DNA of 42,700 nucleotides from a virus. Location: positions 1 to 42,700 of the IMG/VR virus record IMGVR_UViG_3300034418_007037, one strand, 5' to 3'. Every line of letters begins with the position of its first letter. The first letter of the stretch is position 1. The notes under the pieces are model-generated. The model saw nothing but the letters and a program-made list of their open reading frames with translations, did not search any database and had not been told where the DNA came from. The translations under genes and the position numbers were made by a program. Positions 8,002-40,849 of the stretch are shown here, in pieces.

Positions 8002-9381
8002 TTAAGATTTATTTTCTTTTTGTTTCCTTTTTTCAAGAAGTTCACGGATTCTTTCTTTGTTTTTCTCCTCCTTTTGTTCTTCAAGACCAAGGAATGTTAC
8101 ACTCTGCTCCGTATCGATTTCTAACATTTCATTATCAAACTTACAGTTTTCAAATACGATTCCATCTTTACCAATACGTGACTTAGTAATTGCAATGGTT
8201 GCTAAATTCATTTCTTTTTGTTGTAATGACTTAGCAACTGAAATAATAACGTGACCAACTTGTGCCTTTTTAATTGAACCTCCCATCTGGTCTGTAGTAA
8301 CAACGTCAGAAGAAATAGAACTTCTATTTCCTTGTGTTGCTGTCCAACCAACCAAGTTTAGTTCGTGACACATAGCCTCGAAACCTCTCATAACTGAACC
8401 TTCACTTTTCCATTCATCACCTAAATTCTTATCAGGTACAACACAATCAATATAATCTAATACGACCATGTCAACCTTAGTCCCTTCAGCTATCATCTTA
8501 CGAATCTGATTTTTAATCTGATTCATAGTAAGTGTGTCTGACGGTAACTTTTTGAGAACTAACTTATTCGGTGCATTTTCTCTGATTTCTTGAACTTTAC
8601 TTAAAACTTTGTCTTTGTGCATTGACAATAAATCGGGTGCAATTTCAGTCCATAAAGTAAAATGCTTCCTTTGAATAATCTTAGGGTTATCCTCAAAGAA
8701 AATTTGAAGAACGTTATATCCTAAGTTAAATGCGTGATTTGAAATCTTTGTTAAGAGTGTAGATTTACCGACACCTGTTGGTGCCAAAATAACTCCTAAC
8801 TCACCTTTAGCCATTCCACCTTTAAGTAGATTGTCAATACCTGGTATTCCCATAGGGATTGGGTGTCTGAAGTCTTCCTCAAGTACTTCTTCAAGGTTTG
8901 CGAAAACCTCAGCAGTACCAGCATCTACTTCTCCAACTTGTAAAGCTTCTCTTACCATTTCCTCCAAGTGGTCATAAGATTCAAAATCACCTTTATCAAT
9001 GATTTTTTGTGCCTTAGACATGACTTTTTGAAGTTCTTGTTGTTTACAGAACTTAAGAGCTTTTTCCTGTACGAAAGATTCACCTTCGGCAGGGGCTTCT
9101 TTTACTTGCTCCATCATATCAAGAACTATCTTCTGAGCCATAGGAGACGATACTTCTGACTTAATAAGTTGTTCAAGAGTATTATACGAAGGCGTGTGTT
9201 CGTACTTTTGGTAATACTCTTTGAGAACTTGCATGATTAACTTAAAATACTGATTATCAAAGTATTTTGGTTCAATTACATCAACAATGGAAGAAGCAAA
9301 GTCCTTATAAAGAACGATGTTATTTAATAATTGTATTTGAAATGTGTTTCCGAGATATCCGAAATTTTTTTCCTTCGACAT
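8002..9381 (-). CDS. Replicative DNA helicase, DnaB/T4 gp41 type
   Basis: The 459-residue protein is close to T4 gp41 (475). It should form a hexamer that unwinds the lagging strand at the fork. Residues about 10-75 fit the DnaB N-terminal helical domain. The RecA-like motor follows a PIPMGIPGIDNLLKGGM lead-in: Walker A is APTGVGKST (residues 200-208), the Walker B aspartate is Asp309 in MVVLDYIDC, and a DQMGGSIKKAQVGHVI stretch near residue 370 fits the later motor motifs. The C terminus is highly charged (EEQKEEKNKERIRELLEKRKQKENKS). A CATATTTATTAAAAC box lies 29 bases before the ATG, so it may have a promoter separate from the genes upstream. No primase gene is visible in this window. Confidence 0.9.
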   Translation of the reverse strand: MSKEKNFGYLGNTFQIQLLNNIVLYKDFASSIVDVIEPKYFDNQYFKLIMQVLKEYYQKYEHTPSYNTLEQLIKSEVSSPMAQKIVLDMMEQVKEAPAEGESFVQEKALKFCKQQELQKVMSKAQKIIDKGDFESYDHLEEMVREALQVGEVDAGTAEVFANLEEVLEEDFRHPIPMGIPGIDNLLKGGMAKGELGVILAPTGVGKSTLLTKISNHAFNLGYNVLQIFFEDNPKIIQRKHFTLWTEIAPDLLSMHKDKVLSKVQEIRENAPNKLVLKKLPSDTLTMNQIKNQIRKMIAEGTKVDMVVLDYIDCVVPDKNLGDEWKSEGSVMRGFEAMCHELNLVGWTATQGNRSSISSDVVTTDQMGGSIKKAQVGHVIISVAKSLQQKEMNLATIAITKSRIGKDGIVFENCKFDNEMLEIDTEQSVTFLGLEEQKEEKNKERIRELLEKRKQKENKS

Positions 9382-14146: not shown

Positions 14147-17100
14147 TCAAATTTCTCCTCTCTGTACTACTGATTTAAATATATTCAACCATTGGTCGTA
14201 ATTAGTCTTGAATTTCTCGTTTGTGTTTTTTTGACGGTTTACCTCATTTATTATATCTGATGCAGTACCACTAAATGGAGGATTAAGGTATACATTACTC
14301 ATATAAAGTATTGTAAGTGTCTTAGGTAATTCGTTTGTGGTGGTTCCTTGTTCTAAAACATCGTATATAGAGTCTGCCATTGGTCCAATCGGGTTTAGTG
14401 TTGCCCTCATAAAGTCTAACGATTTATCGATAGTATCAAATGATGCTATTGTTGTTAAAGTTTCACCGTTTTGTACACATACTTGTGAATCAAAGAATTG
14501 GTCTCTATTAGGAACTAATACGTCAGTCCTTACATCCATAATATTATTATTATAACAATTTTCTCTGACAGACTTATTTTGTGTCGCAATTCCATATATT
14601 AAAATTTTAATTTTATCGCTTGTAAAATTATTATTATTAACATAGTTAATTACATCTTGTGCTTGTATCGGTGTCTTCACCATATCGGTAAATGGTTTTT
14701 CAGGATATTTTGTAATTTCTTGACCTTTATCCTCAGGGGCTTGTTTAATATTTTTCATTTTAGATAGCGCTAAATTGTTTTCAGTTTCTCCTGTTTTAGC
14801 GTTTATTTCTTCCTGTCTAACTTTTTCTTGATATTGTTTTAATATTTGTCTATTTACACTTGCAACTAATTTATCTGGTGGTGAAAGTGCAAATTTTGGT
14901 ATTCTAATTCCGTCAAAGTTAGTGGTAAACCCTCTGTTAGTTATATTATGTGTCACATTCATTATTAAGTAAGGTCCATAAAATAATGGTACGTTTGTAA
15001 GATTAAAATACATTGTAGGTTGTATCATCGCATTACCTAATGATTGTACTTGACAGGTGTAACTTCGTGTTTTATAAAAGTTATACAGAGATTGTGATTG
15101 TTGAGCAACTTGTTGTCCCGATGCTTGTGAACCCATATCTGCTAATACTTGGAATGTTGGTCCTATGTTTTTATGTTGGTTCATGTCTATAGAGACTGAG
15201 TTAAACACTCCCTGATTTCTTTTTCCGAAATCTACTTGAAATCCTACACATCTATTACTTTCAGAATAATTAGTTTTATTTGTTTGATTTTCTCTTAATG
15301 GACAATCCGATGGGTTTGTTATATCAAATGCATCATCACCTTTTCTAAAAGTATTATTCTGCCCTGTACCCAAATTAGCTGATGGTTCACCAACATATAT
15401 ACCTATCATTCTTGGTCTACTATCCTTTGTATCAACTTCCATAAATGTACCAAATAAGTCGTTTGGTATGTCCTGTGGTAACGGTTCTCCTTTTTTAACT
15501 CTATCGTTTCGACCATAAAAATTTGTATAAGCCGGTGTTGGTATAAATGTGAAATTATTTTTTTGGTAAATTAGACCTAAAAGTCCGTACACTGACATTT
15601 TATCATTTCTACCGGTTATAAATCCTTCTAATTCAGAAATATTTACAACTACCTTATCCCCTATTGGTCTATTAGCCCTGTCTAAGAATAAAAAGTCTTC
15701 AAAAATAGTTCTGTTTTTAAAGTCTTGCCCTGCCACCCATTTATCGTTAAGTGCTTGAAACGTTTTCCATAGTTCAAGTTTTGGTATATTTCCATCAATT
15801 TTAGACAATCCAATCGCCTCTTCAGTGATTGATACTGAAGGTAAGTCCCTATTTAATTTTATGAATATTTGATTAAGTATATTCTCTTGGAAATTTTCCT
15901 GCTCTAACATATAATCGTTTAGGTCACCTATAAATTTACTTTTATTCATAGATGGGTCTTGTGATTTTTTGGCTCCGTATATTTTAATTAATGGTGATAA
16001 TAATTCTACATTACTTTCATTAAATTCAAATCCCATGTCAACGAAAAAGTCAGTTAAATATGAACCGTTATCTCCATATCTAAAACCTGTTTCGGAAAAA
16101 TCTCCTACGTATTCGTACATAGCTCTCCAAGCTTCAGGGTATGAACCTTTACTTGTGCCTAAACTAACTCCTCCCCCTTCTGTTGGTAGAGAACCTATGA
16201 CATAATTTCCGAAGTTGTATGGGTCTTTTATTTTTTGTGAAGATAATGTGGTTAATGAACCATAAACTTTATTGTTATATTTTGAGGGGTTACCAATTTT
16301 AAGTACCGTGTCTTTATTTATAAATAAATCTATGTGGTAGTTTATAAATTGATTACTTTGTGATTTAGTTAATGACGTTAGGACGTTATCAAAGTTTTGT
16401 TGTGTTTCTGGTTTTTCAACCATCAATAAAGATTTTAAAACTTCATATATATTTAAATCGTATCTATATAAGTTAGGTCCATTATATAAACTTTCTTGGT
16501 TTTCATACACCGCCTTCCACCTACTAATTTCCGAAGCTGGCACTTCTCCATTCTCATATTGTCCTTTTATCTCATTACTATTTAAAAATTCTTCGAATGT
16601 TGTATTTCCTCTATTAACTAAGAATTGTGTTTTATTTGGTGGTTGGCAAAAATTTAAAAAGTGTTCTTCAAATAAATCTAACATGTCTTTAGTAAAGACT
16701 CCAAAAATATCATCTATTGATGAATATGTTAGTGATGTACTATTACCTAAATTAAATGCTTGTTCATTTCTATCATCAGGGTTTATATGTTTTATATACT
16801 GATTTGGTTTGGGTTTGTCAATCATTTCATTTGAGAAATACCCAAAATTAGATGACGACCATAACGCTCTTACTCCTCCGTTATAAATGGATGGATTTGT
16901 TGTTACGTTTTGTTTGTGATTACCAATTGTGTCAAAACACTCAAACCTAGCTTGATTAAATTTAGCCTGACCAAAAGAAGGAATAATTAAAACTTTATTT
17001 TCTTCGTTTTCTCTAAAATCAAAATTACCTTGTACATTAAAATACTGAGACCATGTATTCATTTGGTAATCGGATTCAGGATTTTTAGAAAGTTTTATCC

Positions 17101-20100
17101 TTGTTTTGGATGTTGTCCCGATTTGTAATCCTTTTTCAGTTTGGGCGCTTTGTAATTCTGATGATGAATACGTATTAAAGACATCTTTTTTAGTGAAGAA
17201 ATAATAAACGTCATTCATAACCTTAGGAAAGAACCCATTTTGGACTCTTGTTGACTCAAGGTCTATCGTAACGTTAAGGTCTCCGCCTAAGAAGGCAGGG
17301 TCTCCTACATTTAATTGTATAGGCTCTATAAATTGTTCATACTGCTTTATCGTAGTGTTATTCCCACCATAATCATTAAACGTATACGACTTAGACGTGC
17401 TATCTGAAATTGGGTCATACGCATTTACATAATCAAAGTCTTTCCATACCTCGTCTAATATGTCAATATTATCGTTTTGATATTTCTTATATCTGTGCCA
17501 TATAGACCCGTACTTTAAAATAAATAAATATGGTAATTTATGTATCGCAGAATACTTGTTTAATGTCGCAAAAATATAATTTAAGTCAGTCGTTATTTTG
17601 TTTGAGTTTGATTTAAACTTTTCCCTTAGTGTTGATAGTGGTAAGGAGTTTAGGTATAAGTACCCTAATGCGGTATATGGATTTTGTATATCGTTTTTCT
17701 CATTTTCAACTCCTTTCATGATTGAGTTAATAAAGTAAGGAGTGTTTAATAAAGATGTTGTTTGTTTATTAACAATATAGTTTTTAGTTGTATCGTATTT
17801 AGTTCCGTAGTCAACAAAAGATTCTGTTAAAACTAAATCTTTTTGCATTCTTAAGTTATAATAGTTTATAACTTGAGCATTTGTTAAATAATTTGTGTTA
17901 CCATTAGAGTTAATTGAGGACTCAAGGTCACTCGTTTCTTGTGTTGGTGAGTCACTATAATTTAAAATCCATTCAAAGTATGAGAATGGTTTTTTAGTGT
18001 ATGTTTTACCCAATTCAGATAAAGCCTCAATACCATCTTCAACCCCAAAAGAAGCAATTGTTTTTTTAGTTGAATTAATAGTAAACATCTTAGATGTATC
18101 ATTACTTAACCTTATTGAACTTAGTTGCGACCCTTGTGATAGATTTTTTTGTATCCAAGAAAGATTATTAAACGGGTAACCATCACTGAATGACATTTCG
18201 TCTGAGTAATTTTCTTTGAGGTATTTTTTTAATTTGTCGATATTTTCAACGCTGGACTCGACAGTAGTCGTGTCCCCTTCTAAATAACTCAAATCATATA
18301 TACCATAGTCGTTTTCTAAATATGATTTAATGTAAGGTGTTGTGAATTCACCTCTTGAAAGTAAATTCCAACTTGCACCTTCTCCATCATTAGAAATAGA
18401 TTTCATATACTTTAATAAGTTTTCATAACTAAAGGCAAAGTTTTTAAATAACTCAATTAACTCTGTTGAGTTGACCACAGACTCTTTAAGATTGTTATAT
18501 TCAAAATCACTTACTACACTATATATTTCGTCCCTATATCCACTAGATTTGTATAGATTTGTGTAATTACTACTTAGTTGTGACCTTTCAAAAATTTCAT
18601 ATACAAATGGTACAATATTTAAATCGGTATAAGGTCGGTTTTGATTTGGGAATTCTACAGCATTTATACCCATAAATGGTGTATCTTTTAATGTGTTTTC
18701 TAAATCAAAATCAATATTACCCGGTTCTTTTTGAGTCGCACCTTTCATATATTCTTCCACAAATCTAACCTCAGGCCATAAAACTGAAGAAAACGCCCTT
18801 AATTGTGAGGACACAGTGTAGTCGCCAGGATATGTATCTTTTAGTTCTTCATTTCCATCTTCATCTACGGAATTAACAAAATACTGTGGCCAAGGATAAA
18901 CAATTGCAGTCTCTTCTTGTGGGTTATTAGTTGTTGGCACGTTACCACTATTTGTTTCAACTCCTTGTGATTTTTCTGGTGCTAATATCGCATTTCTTCT
19001 TACGGGGTCTTTTCTTTGTTCCCACGCTTCATCGTGTACTTGGTCCATTAACCTTAAAAAGGCGTCGGCACTTGCAGATATAACCGCTATTACGTTTTTT
19101 ATTGTTGGATAAAATCCTAATCCGATGTTTGGGTTTTTTATTTTTTCGGCTAAAGCTTGTGACATTTTTTCTTCTATCATACTTCTCTTAGTCTCGAAAT
19201 CATCATTTAATCTTTGTAGTTTACCTAAGAAGCTAATCGGGTAATATTTTACTTTTCCATATACATCTCCAAAAACAAAAAATGTTCGTAGTAACTGATT
19301 GTCTTCCATTTGAAGTGTTTCAGCATCTACTTGGTATCCACTAATTTTAAGTTCTGTTTCTATTTCTATTCTAAGTTGTTCCACTTCTTGTGATGTTCCG
19401 GCCCTTCTGTTTCTTATTTCGAAAGTAGTTTCGTAATCTATATCATCAGGATTAGTGATTTGTTGTAAAAAATTATTTAAACTTATTGTTGAGGTGAGTG
19501 TGGTTTCTAATTTTTCTCCGTGTACCTTTGCTTGTCCATCACTTCCAAATGTTGCGTTATCATTTAATTTTTTATTATACTCTTTAACAATGGTATCAAG
19601 TGCCGAAATAGAATCACTTATATTTTGTAATGCACTATTTTCCTCACTAATTAATTCTTTTTTAATGGGATAATATATTGGTGAGTTTGGTATGTTTAAT
19701 ACTATCGGTAAATTTCTATCTACGTATTTTGTTTCCCAATTATCTGTTATTTGTCCATATATTTTACTTTCATATTCTTTTAATGTTTTTCTATATGTGT
19801 CTATATCGTTTAGTATTGCAAAATCTTCCTTACCATATGATTCCATAACGTATCTCTCGAAGTTTTCCAACTTCATTAACATCTGGCTTAGTGTTAACTC
19901 TGGAAAGTTATCGTCTATTAATCCTTTTGCCTTGTAAGAGCTGTATACATTTTTTATCATGTCATACCCTCTAGTTGATTTAATTCTTCTTACTTCTTGT
20001 GAACCTCCTTCGTTATTTGTAGAAGTTTTCTCAGGTCCTAATGTTGCGGTTCTTTCATACATATGTGGTAAGGCGAAAAGAGAGTCTACAGATATGTCAG

Positions 20101-25894: not shown

Positions 25895-25902
25895 TATAAA
25901 TA
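25895..25902 (-). promoter_or_regulatory. Putative phage late promoter box (TATTTATA)
   Basis: The minus strand reads TATTTATA, TAAAAATAGATTTAT, ATG (15 bases). The box lies within a 9-bp inverted repeat, AATCTATTT (25883-25891) with AAATAGATT (25898-25906). Confidence 0.5.
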
Positions 25903-30816: not shown

Positions 30817-33800
30817 TTAGATATCCTCAAATGATGCACCTGTTGGTGTAATTAAGAATTCAATATCAATAAATTCTAACGCTCTTGTTGGTTTTAGATA
30901 AATTTTACCTACTAATGTATTGTTATCTAAATCCTCAGGAGTGTTCTGAACTACGACTCTAAAGTCAATCAAACCTCTATCTCTTCTGATTGAATCTAAG
31001 ATTGGGTTTACTGAATCCAAGAACTCTTGTCTTACTTGGTCGTCATTCTGTTCGAACAATAGTCTTACTGCGACTGCTGAAATCAACTTACGAGCCTGTA
31101 GTAACAATCTTCTAACGTTGATTCTGTCGAGTGCAGATTCCTTAACTTGAGTAGTTTTATTACCCCAAATAACTGTTCCAACATCTGAGAACGTTGCGAT
31201 TGGGTTAATTCTACCTTTATAAAGAATATCTCTATCGTCTTGTGTTAATTTTTTACGTGCCTTAATTCCGTTAACCAAACCTCTTGTGTAACCCGCTGAT
31301 GCAAACCATGGGAAAGCAATATTATCAGTTAATGCCAAGTTTCTAACTACTTCCGCTGTCGGTGGTAGGTAGATTTGTGTATTATTAACAGTATCTCTTG
31401 TTAAAATCCATGGGTAATAAGTTGCAGTATAGTTAGAATCGATTCCCGTATCCTCAAGATTTTCAGTCGATTCTTGTGGATAGATGAAGTCACCTGTAAA
31501 GTTAGATGTTGTATTAACAAACATATTATAATCAGGTGTGGTACAAATGTAGATTGAGTCCGCTCTATCAGTTTCAATCATATCAATCGCTTCTTCAATT
31601 AAGTTTGAATTATTCACATAATCAACACCTGGTGTTGTAAACACATTAATATTTACTGATTCAGGATTAACGAATGTCCACTGACCCCATAAGTAAGCGT
31701 AGTAGTCAGTATTACCCCAATCTTGTCTATCGGGTCCTGTTATAGTTTTAAACGCTCCCCATCCTGTAGCACTTGGGAATCTTATTGATGTAGCGGCACC
31801 TTTTAAGTATCCACTATTACCTAATATAAATCTATCTCCATTAGTTCTATACTCTCTGTAAATGTCCCATCCATCAAATCCACCTGTTGGAATCAATGTG
31901 AATTTACGTGCGTTTAATCTATAGTATGGTGATGTATCTGATGGTTCACTATTAAATGAAGCGTCACCGACCTCGAAAGCGGTTTCCCCTGACGTTGTCC
32001 ATTGACTTGAAATTGTGATGACAGTTGCACCTGAGTCCATGTGATATCCTTTAGTTAATACTGCCCATGGTGATGACTCAGTTGCAGTTGCTAAATCAGT
32101 AGGATTTTGTTTACCTTTGTAAGACGCAAAGTCCACGTCGATACCAACAGTGTTTGACACACCTAAGTACACTCTTCTTGGGTTATCACCTGAACTTCTT
32201 GTTACATTATCACCCCCCTGTGTTCCAAATGGAGGATTTGCGATAATTTCACCTGGTGTATCATATTTAGTCTTATAGATAAGATGTGGTGATTTATAAT
32301 TTTTATATTGTCTTGTCTGATAACCTCTAAATCCACACGGTAATGCGTCGATAGGTGCTTCTTCATTAACCTCTAACATAATGAAACGGGACTTCAATTC
32401 AAAATCACCATTTGCAGTACCTATTTTTTTAGCCACATAACTATTAAGATTAGGGTCCATAGTACAATTTGTGAATTTTTCTAACACCACAGGACTTGAG
32501 TCAGTATCGTAGAAATCTCTTACAACAACATCAAAAGTTAAATTGTTAAATGAAATATTTGCTATAGATAATTTTATTTCTCTATTAGCCCCACTACCGT
32601 CAGATATTGATATAAATTTAAATAGATTAAACACCTCGTTACCTCTTAACTCAGAAACCACATATGGAGTAGACGGAGTTTGATATCTATCTAAGTACCA
32701 ACCGATACCTGTATTATCTGTATCTGTTCTTGCTCCATTAAATGATAATAAGTCAGTATTTAAACCTCTGATTTTACCTTGTCTATAACCTGTGTTTAAT
32801 AAGTTATAATACATTTCACCAACCATGAGAGGTACATCATTTCTATCTTTTCCAAAATTAGACTGACCTAACATCTTACTTAAGAAGTTAGGGTCACTTA
32901 AAGTTAACGAAGTATCAAAAGTGAAAGTTTCTGAATCACTTGTAATACCTGATATTTGGAAAGTCGCAAATGGATTATTGGTGATTCCTGAATAAGCACC
33001 TGTAGAATTAATAGTTACATCGGTTAAACCTGACACTTCATATACAGGACCATCGTCACTACTATATGTTGATAAACCTCTTGAACGTAATGTTGAGATT
33101 ACCATGTTATGGTAATCAGTTATAACGGTACCTGAGTAAGTAGTGTCATACACAACAGCTTCACCTGTGTAAGTGTTACCTGACGTGTTTGTGAGACCTG
33201 TAACAATTAAACCGAAACCTACACCTGAGTAGTCTTCACTAGTAGAATTATAAGGGAATAATGCATAATACCAAGAATCATTCTGTGACGCTTCAAAATT
33301 TGCAGTATCTATAGTTAGACCATCAACATCAAAAATATTAGTACTACTTACCCAATTAGATGTACCTGTAATTGTGTCATAAGTGCCACCACTTACAGTT
33401 CCAAACATATAAGCAGTAGTACCTGAGTTTGTTGGGTCGACTATGTCTTTATAAAGACTTGTTTTAAAATCATTTTCTATTGTACTTACTCCTCCACTAA
33501 ATGTTGTATAAGGTAAAGCAAAATAATCTTGTATATATGATGGTAAGTTTGAACCATCTACTACTGTTGATGTACTAGTACCTGACACTCCACTAAACGG
33601 AACAAGGAACGGACCTGCATTACCTGTACCGACTACAGTATCCTTTTTAACGTTACCTACTGTAGATATAGACCAAGCGGGTCCGGCATCATAACCTGAC
33701 AAACCAAGTATACGAGTTACAAAAAGTTGATTTGATTGTTGTAAGTAAGCCTTAGCTATATATGCCGCTTCATACTTAGGAATTTGAGTATTTATAAATT

Positions 33801-33990
33801 TGGTTGGGTTTGTACCTCCAAAATATGAAGTGAACTCATCAAAGTTTGTAATAAAAATTGGTTCGAACGCAGGACCTGACTGAGTTTCACCAACAATACC
33901 TAATGTAGTTACACCAACACTTTGAGCTACAAAACTTAAATCTCTTTCTGATGTATATACACCTGGAGATACGAATACTTTGTCTGCCAT
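30817..33990 (-). CDS. Tail sheath protein, T4 gp18-like, with enlarged middle
   Basis: The 1057-residue protein is much longer than T4 gp18 (659). Both ends are canonical. The N terminus reads VFVSPGVYTSERDLSFVAQS and later ETQSGPAFEPIFITNFDEFTSYFGG. The C-terminal core (residues about 900-1057) has KESALDRINVRRLLLQARKL, then RQEFLDSVNPILDSIRRDRG, FRVVVQNTPEDLDNN and KIYLKPTRALEFIDIEFLIT. These parts form the contractile sheath and its linking strands. Residues about 105-700 are rich in Thr, Ser, Gly and Tyr, and are probably beta-sandwich insertions exposed on the tail surface. It is transcribed alone: an ATATTTATC box lies 33 bases upstream and the UUCG terminator follows. Confidence 0.92.
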   Translation of the reverse strand: MADKVFVSPGVYTSERDLSFVAQSVGVTTLGIVGETQSGPAFEPIFITNFDEFTSYFGGTNPTKFINTQIPKYEAAYIAKAYLQQSNQLFVTRILGLSGYDAGPAWSISTVGNVKKDTVVGTGNAGPFLVPFSGVSGTSTSTVVDGSNLPSYIQDYFALPYTTFSGGVSTIENDFKTSLYKDIVDPTNSGTTAYMFGTVSGGTYDTITGTSNWVSSTNIFDVDGLTIDTANFEASQNDSWYYALFPYNSTSEDYSGVGFGLIVTGLTNTSGNTYTGEAVVYDTTYSGTVITDYHNMVISTLRSRGLSTYSSDDGPVYEVSGLTDVTINSTGAYSGITNNPFATFQISGITSDSETFTFDTSLTLSDPNFLSKMLGQSNFGKDRNDVPLMVGEMYYNLLNTGYRQGKIRGLNTDLLSFNGARTDTDNTGIGWYLDRYQTPSTPYVVSELRGNEVFNLFKFISISDGSGANREIKLSIANISFNNLTFDVVVRDFYDTDSSPVVLEKFTNCTMDPNLNSYVAKKIGTANGDFELKSRFIMLEVNEEAPIDALPCGFRGYQTRQYKNYKSPHLIYKTKYDTPGEIIANPPFGTQGGDNVTRSSGDNPRRVYLGVSNTVGIDVDFASYKGKQNPTDLATATESSPWAVLTKGYHMDSGATVITISSQWTTSGETAFEVGDASFNSEPSDTSPYYRLNARKFTLIPTGGFDGWDIYREYRTNGDRFILGNSGYLKGAATSIRFPSATGWGAFKTITGPDRQDWGNTDYYAYLWGQWTFVNPESVNINVFTTPGVDYVNNSNLIEEAIDMIETDRADSIYICTTPDYNMFVNTTSNFTGDFIYPQESTENLEDTGIDSNYTATYYPWILTRDTVNNTQIYLPPTAEVVRNLALTDNIAFPWFASAGYTRGLVNGIKARKKLTQDDRDILYKGRINPIATFSDVGTVIWGNKTTQVKESALDRINVRRLLLQARKLISAVAVRLLFEQNDDQVRQEFLDSVNPILDSIRRDRGLIDFRVVVQNTPEDLDNNTLVGKIYLKPTRALEFIDIEFLITPTGASFEDI

Positions 33991-36323: not shown

Positions 36324-38108
36324 TTGTTATATTTAACTGTATTTACTTACTCATTGGAAAATAAAACTCTGAATAACTTACCTGAGGTTAGGGCTCTGCG
36401 TACTCTTGAGGATTACAGCGGATATAATAACTATATCCTAAATCTTCAATCAAAAATGAAAAAGTTTAATCATTTTAAATTAACGAGAGCTCAAGCGGAC
36501 TATATATTAAAATTTCACGAAAGAACACCTAAGATTGCGAGAAGGTGGGTTGAATTAGATAGTTATTTCGCCCAAAAATTAATGGATGATAAACTTCTAA
36601 CTAAAAAACCTGAAAAAATCTATATAGAAAAACTTTTAGTAGAAAAAGAAAAATCGTTTCATATATGGGGAAAACTATTTGAGTCGCAAGAACTATCAGA
36701 CATATGGCTACCAAAGGTTGCGTTACAAAAAAATAGACAAAGAGAGGTAAACATAGACTATGAAAAATATTCTCACAGACCACCACTATCTCACCAAAAA
36801 GAAGCTATAGAAAAATTAGTAGGTAATGACAAATATATCTTAGCGGATGATATGGGTCTTGGTAAGACAACGTCCACAGTAATAGCAAGTTTAGAAAGTG
36901 ATATAGAAAAAGTTTTAATTATTTGTCCCGCATCTCTAAAGATTAATTGGCAAAGAGAAATAGAAAATTACACAGATAAAGAAATCTCAATTATAGAAGG
37001 TAAGAAATGGGAGCCGTCAGATTATACAATAATAAACTATGACATCCTTAAAAACTTTCACGACCCAAAACACCCCGATAAATCAGATATCCTTAACTAT
37101 GGATTTGATTTAGTTGTTATGGATGAGGCACATTACATTCAAAACGTAAAAGCTGCAAGAACAAAAATTGCAAACAATATAGTAAAAAAAGTGGGAAGGG
37201 TATGGCTCCTTACGGGGACACCGATGACCTCTCGGCCAATGAATTATTATAATCTTTTAGATTTAGTAGATTCTCCCGTTGCAGATAATTGGATGGCTTA
37301 TGCTATAAGATATTGTGCGGGGTACCAATTTAGTGTAGGAGCAAAAAAAGTATGGAATGTCTCAGGGTCATCCAATCTTGAAGAGCTGAGAGACCGAACA
37401 AAACCGCAGGTTTTGAGAAGGTTGAAGGAAGATATTTTAGATTTGCCCGAAAAAATTATTACTCCTGTTTATCTAAAGTTAAAATCTAAAGAGTATGAAA
37501 AATTAATGGGGGAATATTATGATTGGTATAATTCGTCGGAGGAGTCCACTTCACTTACAATACAGTTTTCTAAACTTATGAAAGTTCGACAAGTAATCGC
37601 AGAAAGTAAAATAAAAAACACAATAGAAGTCGCTCAAAACATTATAGACCAAGGAAAAAAAGTAATAATTTTTACCAATTTTACAGACACTTTAAATAAA
37701 ATAACTGAACATTTTGGTAAATCTGCAGTTAAGCTTGATGGTAAAATGTCTAAACCACAAAGACAACATTCGGTAGACGAATTTCAAAACAATGAAAAAA
37801 TTACAGTGTTTGTGGGTAATTTAAAAGCTGCAGGTGTGGGTATAACATTAACATCCGCTGAGGCGGTAATTATGAACGATTTATCTTTTGTTCCGTCAGA
37901 CCACTCACAAGCAGAAGACAGAGCGTATAGATATGGACAAAAATTTTCAGTATCGGTTTATTACCCTATTTTTGAAAATACCATTGAGGGTATTATATAT
38001 AACATACTCAACAAAAAGAAAAATATTTTTGAGACCGTTATGGGTGATAATGAAGGAAAGGGTGATGTTATGGAGGAAATACTGAGTATGATTTCTCAAA
38101 AAAGGTGA
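36324..38108 (+). CDS. SNF2-type helicase / translocase (UvsW-like role possible)
   Basis: The 594-residue superfamily 2 ATPase has complete SNF2 motifs. Motif I is DDMGLGKTT (about residues 176-184), motif II is Asp267-Glu-Ala-His270, motif III is Thr297-Gly-Thr-Pro300, and motif VI is QAEDRAYRYGQ (529-539). SNF2 proteins translocate on duplex DNA; this one may remodel forks or R-loops, as UvsW does in T4, though UvsW is not SNF2-type. The start is uncertain: the open frame begins with TTG at 36324, with TTG at 36354 and ATG at 36456 as alternatives. Residues between these look coding (LPEVRALRTLEDYSGYNNY). It opens the plus-strand unit and ends 40 bases before the SOD fusion gene. Confidence 0.85.
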   Translation: MLYLTVFTYSLENKTLNNLPEVRALRTLEDYSGYNNYILNLQSKMKKFNHFKLTRAQADYILKFHERTPKIARRWVELDSYFAQKLMDDKLLTKKPEKIYIEKLLVEKEKSFHIWGKLFESQELSDIWLPKVALQKNRQREVNIDYEKYSHRPPLSHQKEAIEKLVGNDKYILADDMGLGKTTSTVIASLESDIEKVLIICPASLKINWQREIENYTDKEISIIEGKKWEPSDYTIINYDILKNFHDPKHPDKSDILNYGFDLVVMDEAHYIQNVKAARTKIANNIVKKVGRVWLLTGTPMTSRPMNYYNLLDLVDSPVADNWMAYAIRYCAGYQFSVGAKKVWNVSGSSNLEELRDRTKPQVLRRLKEDILDLPEKIITPVYLKLKSKEYEKLMGEYYDWYNSSEESTSLTIQFSKLMKVRQVIAESKIKNTIEVAQNIIDQGKKVIIFTNFTDTLNKITEHFGKSAVKLDGKMSKPQRQHSVDEFQNNEKITVFVGNLKAAGVGITLTSAEAVIMNDLSFVPSDHSQAEDRAYRYGQKFSVSVYYPIFENTIEGIIYNILNKKKNIFETVMGDNEGKGDVMEEILSMISQKR

Positions 38109-38127: not shown

Positions 38128-38135
38128 TATTTATA
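38128..38135 (+). promoter_or_regulatory. Putative phage late promoter box (TATTTATA), plus strand
   Basis: The plus strand reads TATTTATA, GATAAAATAAATC, ATG of the SOD fusion gene (13 bases). It shows the box keeps the sense-strand orientation on the other strand too. Confidence 0.5.
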
Positions 38136-38148
38136 GATAAAATAAATC

Positions 38149-39708
38149 ATGGGAACTAGTACAAAATTACAAAAGATATTAGATTTAGAAAACCGTATAA
38201 TTACCGAAAAAATAGGTAATAAGTTACCCAAACAAATATTACAAGAAATGAAAAAAATAGGAATCGAAAGATTACCCTATTCTTATTCAGCCGTAGAACG
38301 TTTTATAGATAAAGAAACTATGAATGTTCATTACAACAAACACTACAAAGGTTATGTTGAAAAACTTAACAAAGCAATTAAAAATAAGAAGGGTAAAGAT
38401 AAGAGTTTAGAAGAAATAATCAAAACGATATCTCGTTTTGATAGAGGGATAAAAGATAACGCGGGAGGTGCTTTTAACCACGCTCTGTTTTGGAAAATGT
38501 TAAGTCCAAAAAAACAAAGATGTTCAGGAGACATATACGAAAAAATTATTAAAGAGTTTAAAACATTTAACAACTTTAAAACCCAATTTGAGTCTGTCGC
38601 GCAAAAAAGGTTTGGTTCAGGATGGGTATGGTTAGTTTTAACCAAAAACGATAGACTTAAAATCATGTCAACAGCCAATCAAGATAATCCATTAATGAAT
38701 ACTGTAAGAGGTGGTGGATTCCCTTTATTAGGATTAGATTTATGGGAACATTCTTATTACTTAAAGTATAGAAATAAAAAAGACGATTACATTAAAAATT
38801 TCTGGTCTGTGGTAAATTGGTCTTTTGTAAATGAATTATTACAGAGTCAAAATAAAGAAAGTTTAAATGAATCAATCAAACCGAAAGAACTATTGATTGA
38901 AAGTGAGAGTACGGGATGTTCATCAAGACAAGTAAGAGATACTATTGATTTATTTAATCGTAATCCAAGGATTAAGTGGTCATACCGAAAAGCAATCGAC
39001 GAAATATTCAAAGAGATTTTTAAAGACTACTGGAGGGAAAAACAGGGTGACCAACTATCAGGAATATATGATTTTGAATATCAAGGAATAAAAGAGCCTG
39101 GTCGTTCAGTGTTAAATAAAATTAATACGAATGCATCGACCTTTTGTATTTTACAAAACGATATGAATAAGGTGCTCAAGTATTCTGGTTTTACCCCAAT
39201 AAACTTTAAGAATAAAAATGAGGCACAACAAATTCAAGAAGTATATCGATTTATAAGATATATAAGACAATTTAAAGATAGGTTGTTTGCTCACGCATCT
39301 AAGACATTTACAAACATGTATCAAACCGTTGACCGAAGAAATCGACAGGGTGATAAAACAGAACAAAGCTCTGTAAAAAAATTACAAAAGATTTTTGGTG
39401 ACGGAAACGTAAAACAAGTCGGTGAGTTAGGAAGTGTTGAGGATGCTATAGGAGGTGTAGATGCGGTTGTTAGAACTAAAGATGGTGATAAGACCGCACA
39501 AATAAAACCATTTAAGTATTATAAAGAATCTGACGGAAAAATAACTATGGTCGGTACAGGTGTCATAAAACAATATGATACCGATTTAATGATTTTTCAT
39601 CACGATAAAAAAGGTGTAATGGTATTTGATAATTCAGATACTGAGATTGTTAACGGTCAATATGTGTTCGACAGGTCAAAACTATACGATAAAAGAGGAA
39701 TTGTGTAA
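38149..39708 (+). CDS. Mn-type superoxide dismutase fused to a PD-(D/E)XK-like domain
   Basis: The 519-residue protein has two parts. Residues about 40-232 are a complete Fe/Mn superoxide dismutase, converting superoxide to hydrogen peroxide and oxygen. Metal ligands are His61, His111, Asp197 and His201, with second-shell His65 and Tyr69; PLLGLDLWEHSYYLKYRNKK is nearly identical to E. coli SodA. AGG at 106-107 and Gln178 (TANQDNPLM) are Mn-type marks. Residues about 252-519 are unlike SOD; E426, D438, Q451 and K453 (GGVDAVV, then TAQIKPF) fit a PD-(D/E)XK nuclease core. Hydrophobic-x-Glu sites occur at I18-T-E20 and L249-I-E251|S, the second at the domain junction, so the prohead protease could trim and split it. 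A TATTTATA box precedes it. Confidence 0.9.
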   Translation: MGTSTKLQKILDLENRIITEKIGNKLPKQILQEMKKIGIERLPYSYSAVERFIDKETMNVHYNKHYKGYVEKLNKAIKNKKGKDKSLEEIIKTISRFDRGIKDNAGGAFNHALFWKMLSPKKQRCSGDIYEKIIKEFKTFNNFKTQFESVAQKRFGSGWVWLVLTKNDRLKIMSTANQDNPLMNTVRGGGFPLLGLDLWEHSYYLKYRNKKDDYIKNFWSVVNWSFVNELLQSQNKESLNESIKPKELLIESESTGCSSRQVRDTIDLFNRNPRIKWSYRKAIDEIFKEIFKDYWREKQGDQLSGIYDFEYQGIKEPGRSVLNKINTNASTFCILQNDMNKVLKYSGFTPINFKNKNEAQQIQEVYRFIRYIRQFKDRLFAHASKTFTNMYQTVDRRNRQGDKTEQSSVKKLQKIFGDGNVKQVGELGSVEDAIGGVDAVVRTKDGDKTAQIKPFKYYKESDGKITMVGTGVIKQYDTDLMIFHHDKKGVMVFDNSDTEIVNGQYVFDRSKLYDKRGIV

Positions 39709-39736: not shown

Positions 39737-40849
39737 ATGTCTGTAATAACTGAACCACAAAGAAGTAAACTATTTACAAGAATAAAACATCTGTTAGGCG
39801 CACCCATAAGAGGGGTTGAAATAACAGATGAAATGATGGATTCTCTTTTAGAATTATCGATTCAAGATTATGCTCAATACGTTAACGATTGGTTAATAGA
39901 GGCTCAATGGACTTCTCTTTACGGTCTTAACTTAGACGAACAATCTTTAACTAGAGCATTTATTACAAGAAGTTTAGATTGGGAAACTCAGTACACATAC
40001 GCGTATTCTAAAATTGTAGGATTACAAGCGGGAGGAGACTCCGTACTAAAAAAAGATTACATAGACCTAGTAAAAGGACAACAGATATATGAAATCCCAA
40101 AAGGGAGAGAATTAAATGAATTATTATGGTTTACACGTTCTGAGTTAGACGCGGCATATTTTGACCCATTTATGGGTGGATTTGGTGGTTTTGGGGGAAT
40201 TGGTTTAGGAGGTGCCGCAGGTTTTTCACAAATGGGCACTATGGGTAACTATTTTATAACTCCCGCCTTTGATATCTTACTAAGAATGCAAGACATTAAT
40301 ATTAAGAGAAGAATTATCTCAGGTGAATTAACTTATAGAGTCACCGCCCTTCCTGATGGTAAAAAAGCAGTACACTTAATGAATGTTCCTGGAGGTAAAT
40401 TTGATTTCGGAAATATTCAGAATAATCAATATAAAGTTTGGTATTGGTATTATGAAACAGATGATAGAGAGTCATGTTTAGCTGAAAATCCAGATATTGT
40501 TAAGTTACCATCAGATATACCTATAGATGAAATGTTATGGGACGAGTTGAATAATCCTGCACAAACGTGGGTTAGGAGATGGTTTACATCATATGTAAAA
40601 GAATCATTAGGTAGAGTTAGAGGTAAATACCAGGGTAATCTAAAAACACCCGACTCAGAAATTCAATTAGAATATGACTCATTATTAACTGAGGCTAAAG
40701 ATGAAAAATCTAAATTAGTCGAGGAGTTAACACAGAGGTTAGAAAGACTACGACCAGACAAAATGATGGAAAGACAAGCTAGTGAGGCGGAAAATCTAAA
40801 TAAATCTTTACAATACAGGGCATTCCCAAGACAATTTTATTCAATATAA
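39737..40849 (+). CDS. Neck protein, T4 gp13-like head completion
   Basis: The 370-residue protein resembles T4 gp13 (309), which forms the ring that closes the filled head and receives the tail. The N-terminal helical half reads VEITDEMMDSLLELSIQDYA and DWLIEAQWTSLYGLNL. The C-terminal part has NPAQTWVRRWFTSYVKESLG, RVRGKYQGNL and a long helix LLTEAKDEKSKLVEELTQRL, as in gp13. Residues about 143-165 are a Gly/Phe/Met-rich loop (GGFGGFGGIGLGGAAG) not expected in gp13, perhaps a flexible surface loop. It has its own TATTTATA box and is followed after one base by the small unknown gene. Confidence 0.75.
   Translation: MSVITEPQRSKLFTRIKHLLGAPIRGVEITDEMMDSLLELSIQDYAQYVNDWLIEAQWTSLYGLNLDEQSLTRAFITRSLDWETQYTYAYSKIVGLQAGGDSVLKKDYIDLVKGQQIYEIPKGRELNELLWFTRSELDAAYFDPFMGGFGGFGGIGLGGAAGFSQMGTMGNYFITPAFDILLRMQDINIKRRIISGELTYRVTALPDGKKAVHLMNVPGGKFDFGNIQNNQYKVWYWYYETDDRESCLAENPDIVKLPSDIPIDEMLWDELNNPAQTWVRRWFTSYVKESLGRVRGKYQGNLKTPDSEIQLEYDSLLTEAKDEKSKLVEELTQRLERLRPDKMMERQASEAENLNKSLQYRAFPRQFYSI

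Follow-up and report, generated by a model that had tools for sequence, protein, structure and literature searches.

A superoxide dismutase fused to a PD-(D/E)XK-like nuclease in uncultured T4-like phages: a putative protease-cut head cargo

The internal proteins of the phage T4 head carry short N-terminal capsid-targeting propeptides, which are removed by the prohead protease gp21, an enzyme with the specificity L/I-x-E (PMC9026906). Enzymes that remove superoxide are also found among viruses. Giant eukaryotic viruses package a Cu,Zn-superoxide dismutase (Cu,Zn-SOD) in the virion (review PMC9405923), and stand-alone SODs are encoded by the jumbo phages PA5oct and Vibrio phage 2.275.O. SODs, PD-(D/E)XK nucleases, and T4-type internal proteins are all known singly. 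Our literature searches returned no description of a fusion between the first two, and a two-enzyme head-cargo precursor containing an SOD is undescribed within the reach of those searches.

The DNA analyzed here (the window) is the 42,700-nucleotide stretch at positions 1 to 42,700 of IMG/VR virus record IMGVR_UViG_3300034418_007037. One of its genes joins an SOD to a nuclease-like domain in one open reading frame (Table 1). The encoded protein is similar to the T4 internal head proteins (IPI-III, Alt) in having an N-terminal propeptide that ends at an L/I-x-E site, and genes for a gp21-type protease and for a gp23 capsid protein bearing a comparable site are present in related phages. In contrast to the T4 proteins, the putative precursor consists of two folded enzymes with additional sites between them, and the likeness observed is that of a propeptide ending at such a site rather than one of sequence homology. 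With the Cu,Zn-SOD of giant viruses it would share the notion of a virion-borne SOD; that enzyme, however, belongs to another SOD family and another virus realm and lacks a nuclease fusion.

Table 1. Features of the fusion gene and its surroundings, in window coordinates
Feature	Position	Strand	Remarks
SNF2-type DNA helicase, fixed upstream neighbor	36324..38108	+	profile matches, synteny
TATTTATA element, candidate late promoter element	38128..38135	+	21 bp before the ATG
SOD-nuclease ORF (putative precursor)	38149..39708	+	single uninterrupted frame, ATG start, 519 aa
N-terminal propeptide, putative, capsid-targeting-like	38149..38247	+	residues 1-33; variable, helical, kept in SOD-less relatives
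Site 1, L31-Q-E33 / M34, prohead-protease-type [LI]xE	38239..38247	+	N-terminal border of SOD; 34/35
Mn-type SOD domain	38248..38853	+	about residues 34-235; ligands H61, H111, D197, H201
Site 2, L239-N-E241 / S242	38863..38871	+	[LI]xE in 31/35; E241 invariant in 35
Site 3, L249-I-E251 / S252	38893..38901	+	[LI]xE in 34/35
PD-(D/E)XK-like nuclease domain	38902..39705	+	residues 252-519; AlphaFold and Foldseek
E405, helix acid in the nuclease core, invariant	39361..39363	+	conservation
D438, invariant core acid of the nuclease	39460..39462	+	conservation
Q451-x-K453, invariant QxK of the nuclease core	39499..39507	+	conservation
Neck / head-completion protein, fixed downstream neighbor	39737..40849	+	phrog_211 head-tail adaptor, synteny

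Judged by its sequence, the N-terminal half is an intact, Mn-type member of the Fe/Mn superoxide dismutase family. Pfam recognizes both of its parts, Sod_Fe_N at residues 40-119 (1.6e-22, 80.2 bits; curated cut-off 27) and Sod_Fe_C at residues 127-229 (2e-38, 131 bits; curated cut-off 20.9), and the nearest solved structures in the PDB are MnSODs (E 7e-56). Alignment with SodA shows that the ligands and all second-sphere residues checked are retained (H61, H65, Y69, H111, W115, W159, W161, Q178, D197, W199, E200, H201, and Y204), including the metal ligand set of three His and one Asp, Tyr34 (Y69), and Gln146 (Q178). These residues are invariant in all 35 relatives. The earlier note had claimed a complete set of metal ligands and, from Gln178, an Mn-type enzyme, and both claims hold. 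Bacterial SodA is 44-46% identical over about 195 residues and shares the catalytic and second-sphere residues checked, while the N-terminal propeptide and the C-terminal nuclease belong to the phage protein. The SODs of PA5oct and Vibrio phage 2.275.O are members of the same Fe/Mn family, but they are only 26-27% identical to the phage domain and are unfused to this nuclease across the aligned reach.

The C-terminal half was assigned from its predicted structure. Pfam matched no family beyond residue 235, and searches of Pfam, PHROGs, and PDB sequences with the C-terminal domain gave matches at chance level only. The AlphaFold model of the domain, built from a 35-row alignment, has a pLDDT of 90.3 and a pTM of 0.84. 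The fold search that the earlier note had called for places PD-(D/E)XK enzymes, including Hjc resolvases and I-Ssp6803I, in all of the top 18 Foldseek positions against the PDB (probability up to 0.99, E 0.007-0.5, TM-scores 0.2-0.5), and annotated PD-(D/E)XK proteins are among the matches in BFVD. The best matches of the model thus point to a PD-(D/E)XK-like nuclease fold. The core fold and the E...D...(E/Q)xK signature are shared with the archaeal Holliday junction resolvase Hjc and the homing endonuclease I-Ssp6803I; the phage domain differs in having about 130 additional, helical residues at its N-terminal side, and sequence similarity to these enzymes is undetectable in the PDB sequence search.

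Residues E405, D438, Q451, and K453 are invariant in the 35 relatives and in 17 further sequences, and D432 is a further acidic residue that is invariant in the 35. In the model, E405 lies in a long helix, and D438 and Q451-x-K453 are found at or on the core strands. The nuclease core proposed earlier, E426/D438/Q451-x-K453, therefore stands in its last three residues; E426 varies among relatives and is rejected as the catalytic acid, and the conserved helix acid is E405. A QxK in place of ExK is frequent among Mrr-like members and is not odd.

The domain was also seen outside the fusion. The 735-kb huge phage LR756501 encodes a stand-alone 290-aa homologue (L121:5743-6615) without SOD in the same ORF, 26% identical to the nuclease domain; a viral scan with this homologue as query found nothing. 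A domain of a 1113-aa uncharacterised protein from an uncultured marine phage (BFVD A0A8D9CCA0) matches the nuclease model with a TM of 0.79, and the nuclease domain is therefore present in other architectures too.

The fusion is genuine, conserved, and widespread. At least 597 IMG/VR stretches are related to the full protein, part of which may match the SOD half alone, and the best 80 all carry the full-length fusion at 50-100% identity. When the C-terminal domain alone was used as the query, SOD was present in the same ORF in 78 of the 80 best loci. Since the join recurs in independent full-length loci, an assembly artefact, which the earlier note had named as a possible refutation, is ruled out. 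The fusion and its flanking genes keep one fixed order across the best 80 IMG/VR loci, and, far from being a one-off, it is one of the syntenic core genes in a large uncultured T4-like phage lineage. Purifying selection is strong on both halves, with dN/dS of about 0.02-0.06 for the SOD and 0.03-0.15 for the nuclease. Residue invariance was counted over 35 non-redundant relatives, and the second set of 17 sequences is largely separate from these.

Within the collections searched (cultured phages, IMG/VR, GTDB, and plasmids), the fusion is confined to phages. No full-length match was found among cultured phage records, in line with the novelty suggested earlier, or among plasmids, where the search returned SODs only. 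The GTDB genome scan, run with patterns from the SOD half, likewise yielded SODs and no fusion; PADLOC gave no match for the fusion, and Rfam gave none. BFVD contains a 501-aa uncultured-phage protein named "superoxide dismutase", and the C-terminal part of this protein matches the nuclease domain (TM 0.88); members of the family have therefore been deposited under the plain SOD name.

The domain borders coincide exactly with three [L/I]xE sites, at residues 31-33, 239-241, and 249-251. Site 1 lies just before the SOD core, the next residues being mostly MKKIGIE.LPYSY, and it ends the propeptide in 33 of the 34 members with a readable start (34 of 35 on longer frames). At site 2 the other four of the 35 relatives have V at the first position, and a single member, L044, lacks site 3. 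The second set retains site 2 (with L, I, or V first) and site 3 in 17 of 17 sequences each; about half of them have site 1 at its usual position, and in most others it lies about 5 residues upstream, a shift seen in one subgroup. The [L/I]xE motif is short; [LI]xE[AGS] occurs 1.43 times per linker versus 0.125 in shuffled sequences, and only 0.03 times per SOD domain and 0.2 times per nuclease domain, both below shuffles. Local conservation around the linker sites is low (0.40 at site 2 and 0.42 at site 3), whereas the surroundings of conserved LxE motifs in neighboring proteins, taken as a control, are mostly conserved (0.65-0.88), with one exception in the neck protein, at its N-terminus (0.51). 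In the full-length model pLDDT falls below 50 at residues 13-44 and 236-247, with sites 1 and 2 inside these segments and site 3 just past the second. The propeptide is short, helical, and variable, and no clear similarity to the T4 capsid targeting sequence was seen by inspection.

Small proteins with common N-termini, such as MKKIIRLTESDLxxIVKRIINES or MKYLITESKLxxIV, are encoded by many ORFs of one relative (L130, G001:C1:20001-40000; e.g., 8683-8988 on the minus strand, 16500-16877 and 19107-19478 on the plus strand). Among 308 ORFs from two relatives, [LI]xE[AGSN] is enriched at residues 1-20 (38 vs 17, shuffle maximum 26). The shared N-termini are candidate capsid-targeting propeptides, and the lineage may therefore package many proteins.

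The window is a fragment that does not contain the protease and capsid genes, which were found in longer relatives. A Peptidase_S77 of the gp21 family is present in 9 of the 22 long relatives searched: in four of the first 16, which are the same four that have a near-complete gp23, and in five of six further long records. Every one of the 22 with a near-complete gp23 also has the peptidase. In the four head modules that were read, the capsid protein opens with a 60-residue propeptide ending LINE/A, and a small scaffold-like protein beside the portal gene contains 3 to 7 [LI]xE[AGS] motifs. Exported-looking proteins with Bacteroidota-like signal peptides adjoin one head module (L096:14700-18559), a weak hint of a Bacteroidota host.

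Flanking the fusion are the helicase and neck-protein genes rather than head core genes. The block opens on the opposite strand with a tail-sheath gene and small genes, continues with the SNF2 helicase, the fusion, the neck protein, and a small gene, and ends with a DNA polymerase B on the opposite strand. The neck protein is similar to a protein of Flavobacterium phage immuto that is annotated as a head completion protein. By their sheath and neck proteins, immuto and Microcystis phage Mel-JY01 are the nearest cultured relatives; in neither is an SOD gene annotated in the stretch read around the neck gene. The helicase gives PADLOC matches to the ZorD, DpdE, and DrmD helicases, and it is possible that it forms a functional pair with the nuclease. 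The tail sheath (30817-33990, 1057 aa) has a long extra N-terminal part, and known sheaths match only its C-terminal third.

In 28 of the 35 relatives the fusion gene is preceded, at a distance of 11-41 bp, by the element TATTTATA, which is the T4 late element in reverse complement, whereas TATAAATA, the T4 late motif in its classic form, was found upstream in one of 35 and was set aside. In the window and in relatives, TATTTATA also precedes the neck gene and several tail and head genes or operons, while most replication genes in the window are without it. Gene-sense copies before several virion genes of the window lie at 25895, 28146, 29679, 38128, and 39716. The element may be a late promoter of the lineage.

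Two relatives show what remains when the SOD is absent. A 215-kb contig (L210) and a 309-kb contig (L218) have, at the same place, a 294-aa gene in which the propeptide runs directly into ...(V/I)LSE/S and then the nuclease. What is missing is exactly the SOD segment, sites 1 and 2 included, and site 3 is kept. The two branch together (100/99) and nest inside the fusion clade, and no SOD was found elsewhere in these possibly incomplete contigs; the SOD was therefore probably lost secondarily. The nuclease is thus the constant part. An LxE retained where there are no longer two domains to separate is as expected if the site serves propeptide removal.

We propose that the protein is a head-cargo precursor of this T4-like lineage, one that is packaged, split by the prohead protease, and carried into the cell along with the DNA. 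We regard this as the rather probable reading, favored by the sites, the protease and capsid genes of the relatives, the natural SOD deletion, and the late-type element. Points that weigh against it are the shortness of the motif, the shifted site 1, the member lacking site 3, the dissimilarity by eye between the propeptide and the T4 targeting sequence, and the position of the gene away from the head core genes. The precursor, laid out as targeting propeptide, Mn-SOD, short linker, and PD-(D/E)XK nuclease, would be made late, alongside virion proteins, and enter the prohead. There a gp21-type protease would cut after [L/I]xE at the three sites, releasing a free SOD (about residues 34-241) and a free nuclease (about 252-519). 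The exact placing of protease-type sites at the joints points to packaging of both enzymes in the head and to their delivery with the DNA. Both would remain in the capsid and reach the cell with the DNA at infection, where the nuclease may act against host or competing DNA. The SOD would probably remove superoxide near the incoming DNA, either in the virion or in the newly infected cell. The earlier ideas that the protein shields packaged DNA or couples redox defense to an attack on DNA would fit such a cargo. A free nuclease in the capsid would have to be kept inactive, or the phage DNA would have to be protected. The fuller reading, a phage polyprotein in which an unrelated Mn-SOD and nuclease are co-packaged, separated by the prohead protease, and injected together, is in our judgment evenly balanced between true and false.

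The main rival is an uncut bifunctional enzyme acting in the infected cell, with the SOD shielding DNA or the host from superoxide and the nuclease degrading host DNA or resolving phage DNA, possibly in concert with the SNF2 helicase encoded next to it. The active sites are intact in both halves, the helicase always adjoins, and ZorD offers a precedent for pairing an SNF2 helicase with an Mrr-like nuclease. However, such an enzyme leaves unexplained why a glutamate, with L or I two residues earlier, is alone conserved in a variable linker, and why the SOD-less relatives retain an LxE site; moreover, the late-type element and the neighboring neck gene point to virion expression. We therefore consider this explanation unlikely. 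With conserved sites of the prohead-protease type on either side of the SOD, it is improbable that the halves work together as a single bifunctional enzyme.

It is also conceivable, although we find it distinctly improbable, that the protein is packaged for virion stability. The capsid SOD would then counter photochemical superoxide in sunlit water, and the nuclease-like domain would serve chiefly in DNA binding or packaging, for instance by resolving junctions while the DNA is packaged. The cleavage evidence applies equally to this explanation, Holliday junction resolvases are the nearest fold, and the neck gene adjoins. Conversely, the invariant E/D/QxK core suggests catalysis, and two related phages have lost the SOD and kept the nuclease. 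That the C-terminal domain is an unrelated, non-nuclease fold with a chance resemblance in its motif is very unlikely: the lack of Pfam or significant sequence matches to solved structures and the modest Foldseek E-values leave some room for it, but the uniform top PDB matches, the annotated BFVD matches, and the placement of the invariant residues on the expected helix and strands argue against it.

If the head-cargo reading is true, a widespread lineage of uncultured T4-like phages brings both an antioxidant enzyme and a nuclease into the cell along with its DNA, and, if the polyprotein reading holds, this would be, to our knowledge, the first phage with a virion-borne SOD. Superoxide would then pose a genuine danger within the virion or during the opening minutes of infection. 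Prohead protease sites would release several enzymes from a single precursor, forming a modular cargo slot in which enzymes are lost or gained between the sites. Such sites would also provide a sequence signature for spotting other injected phage enzymes, and the cargo of T4-like heads would become a directly testable question.
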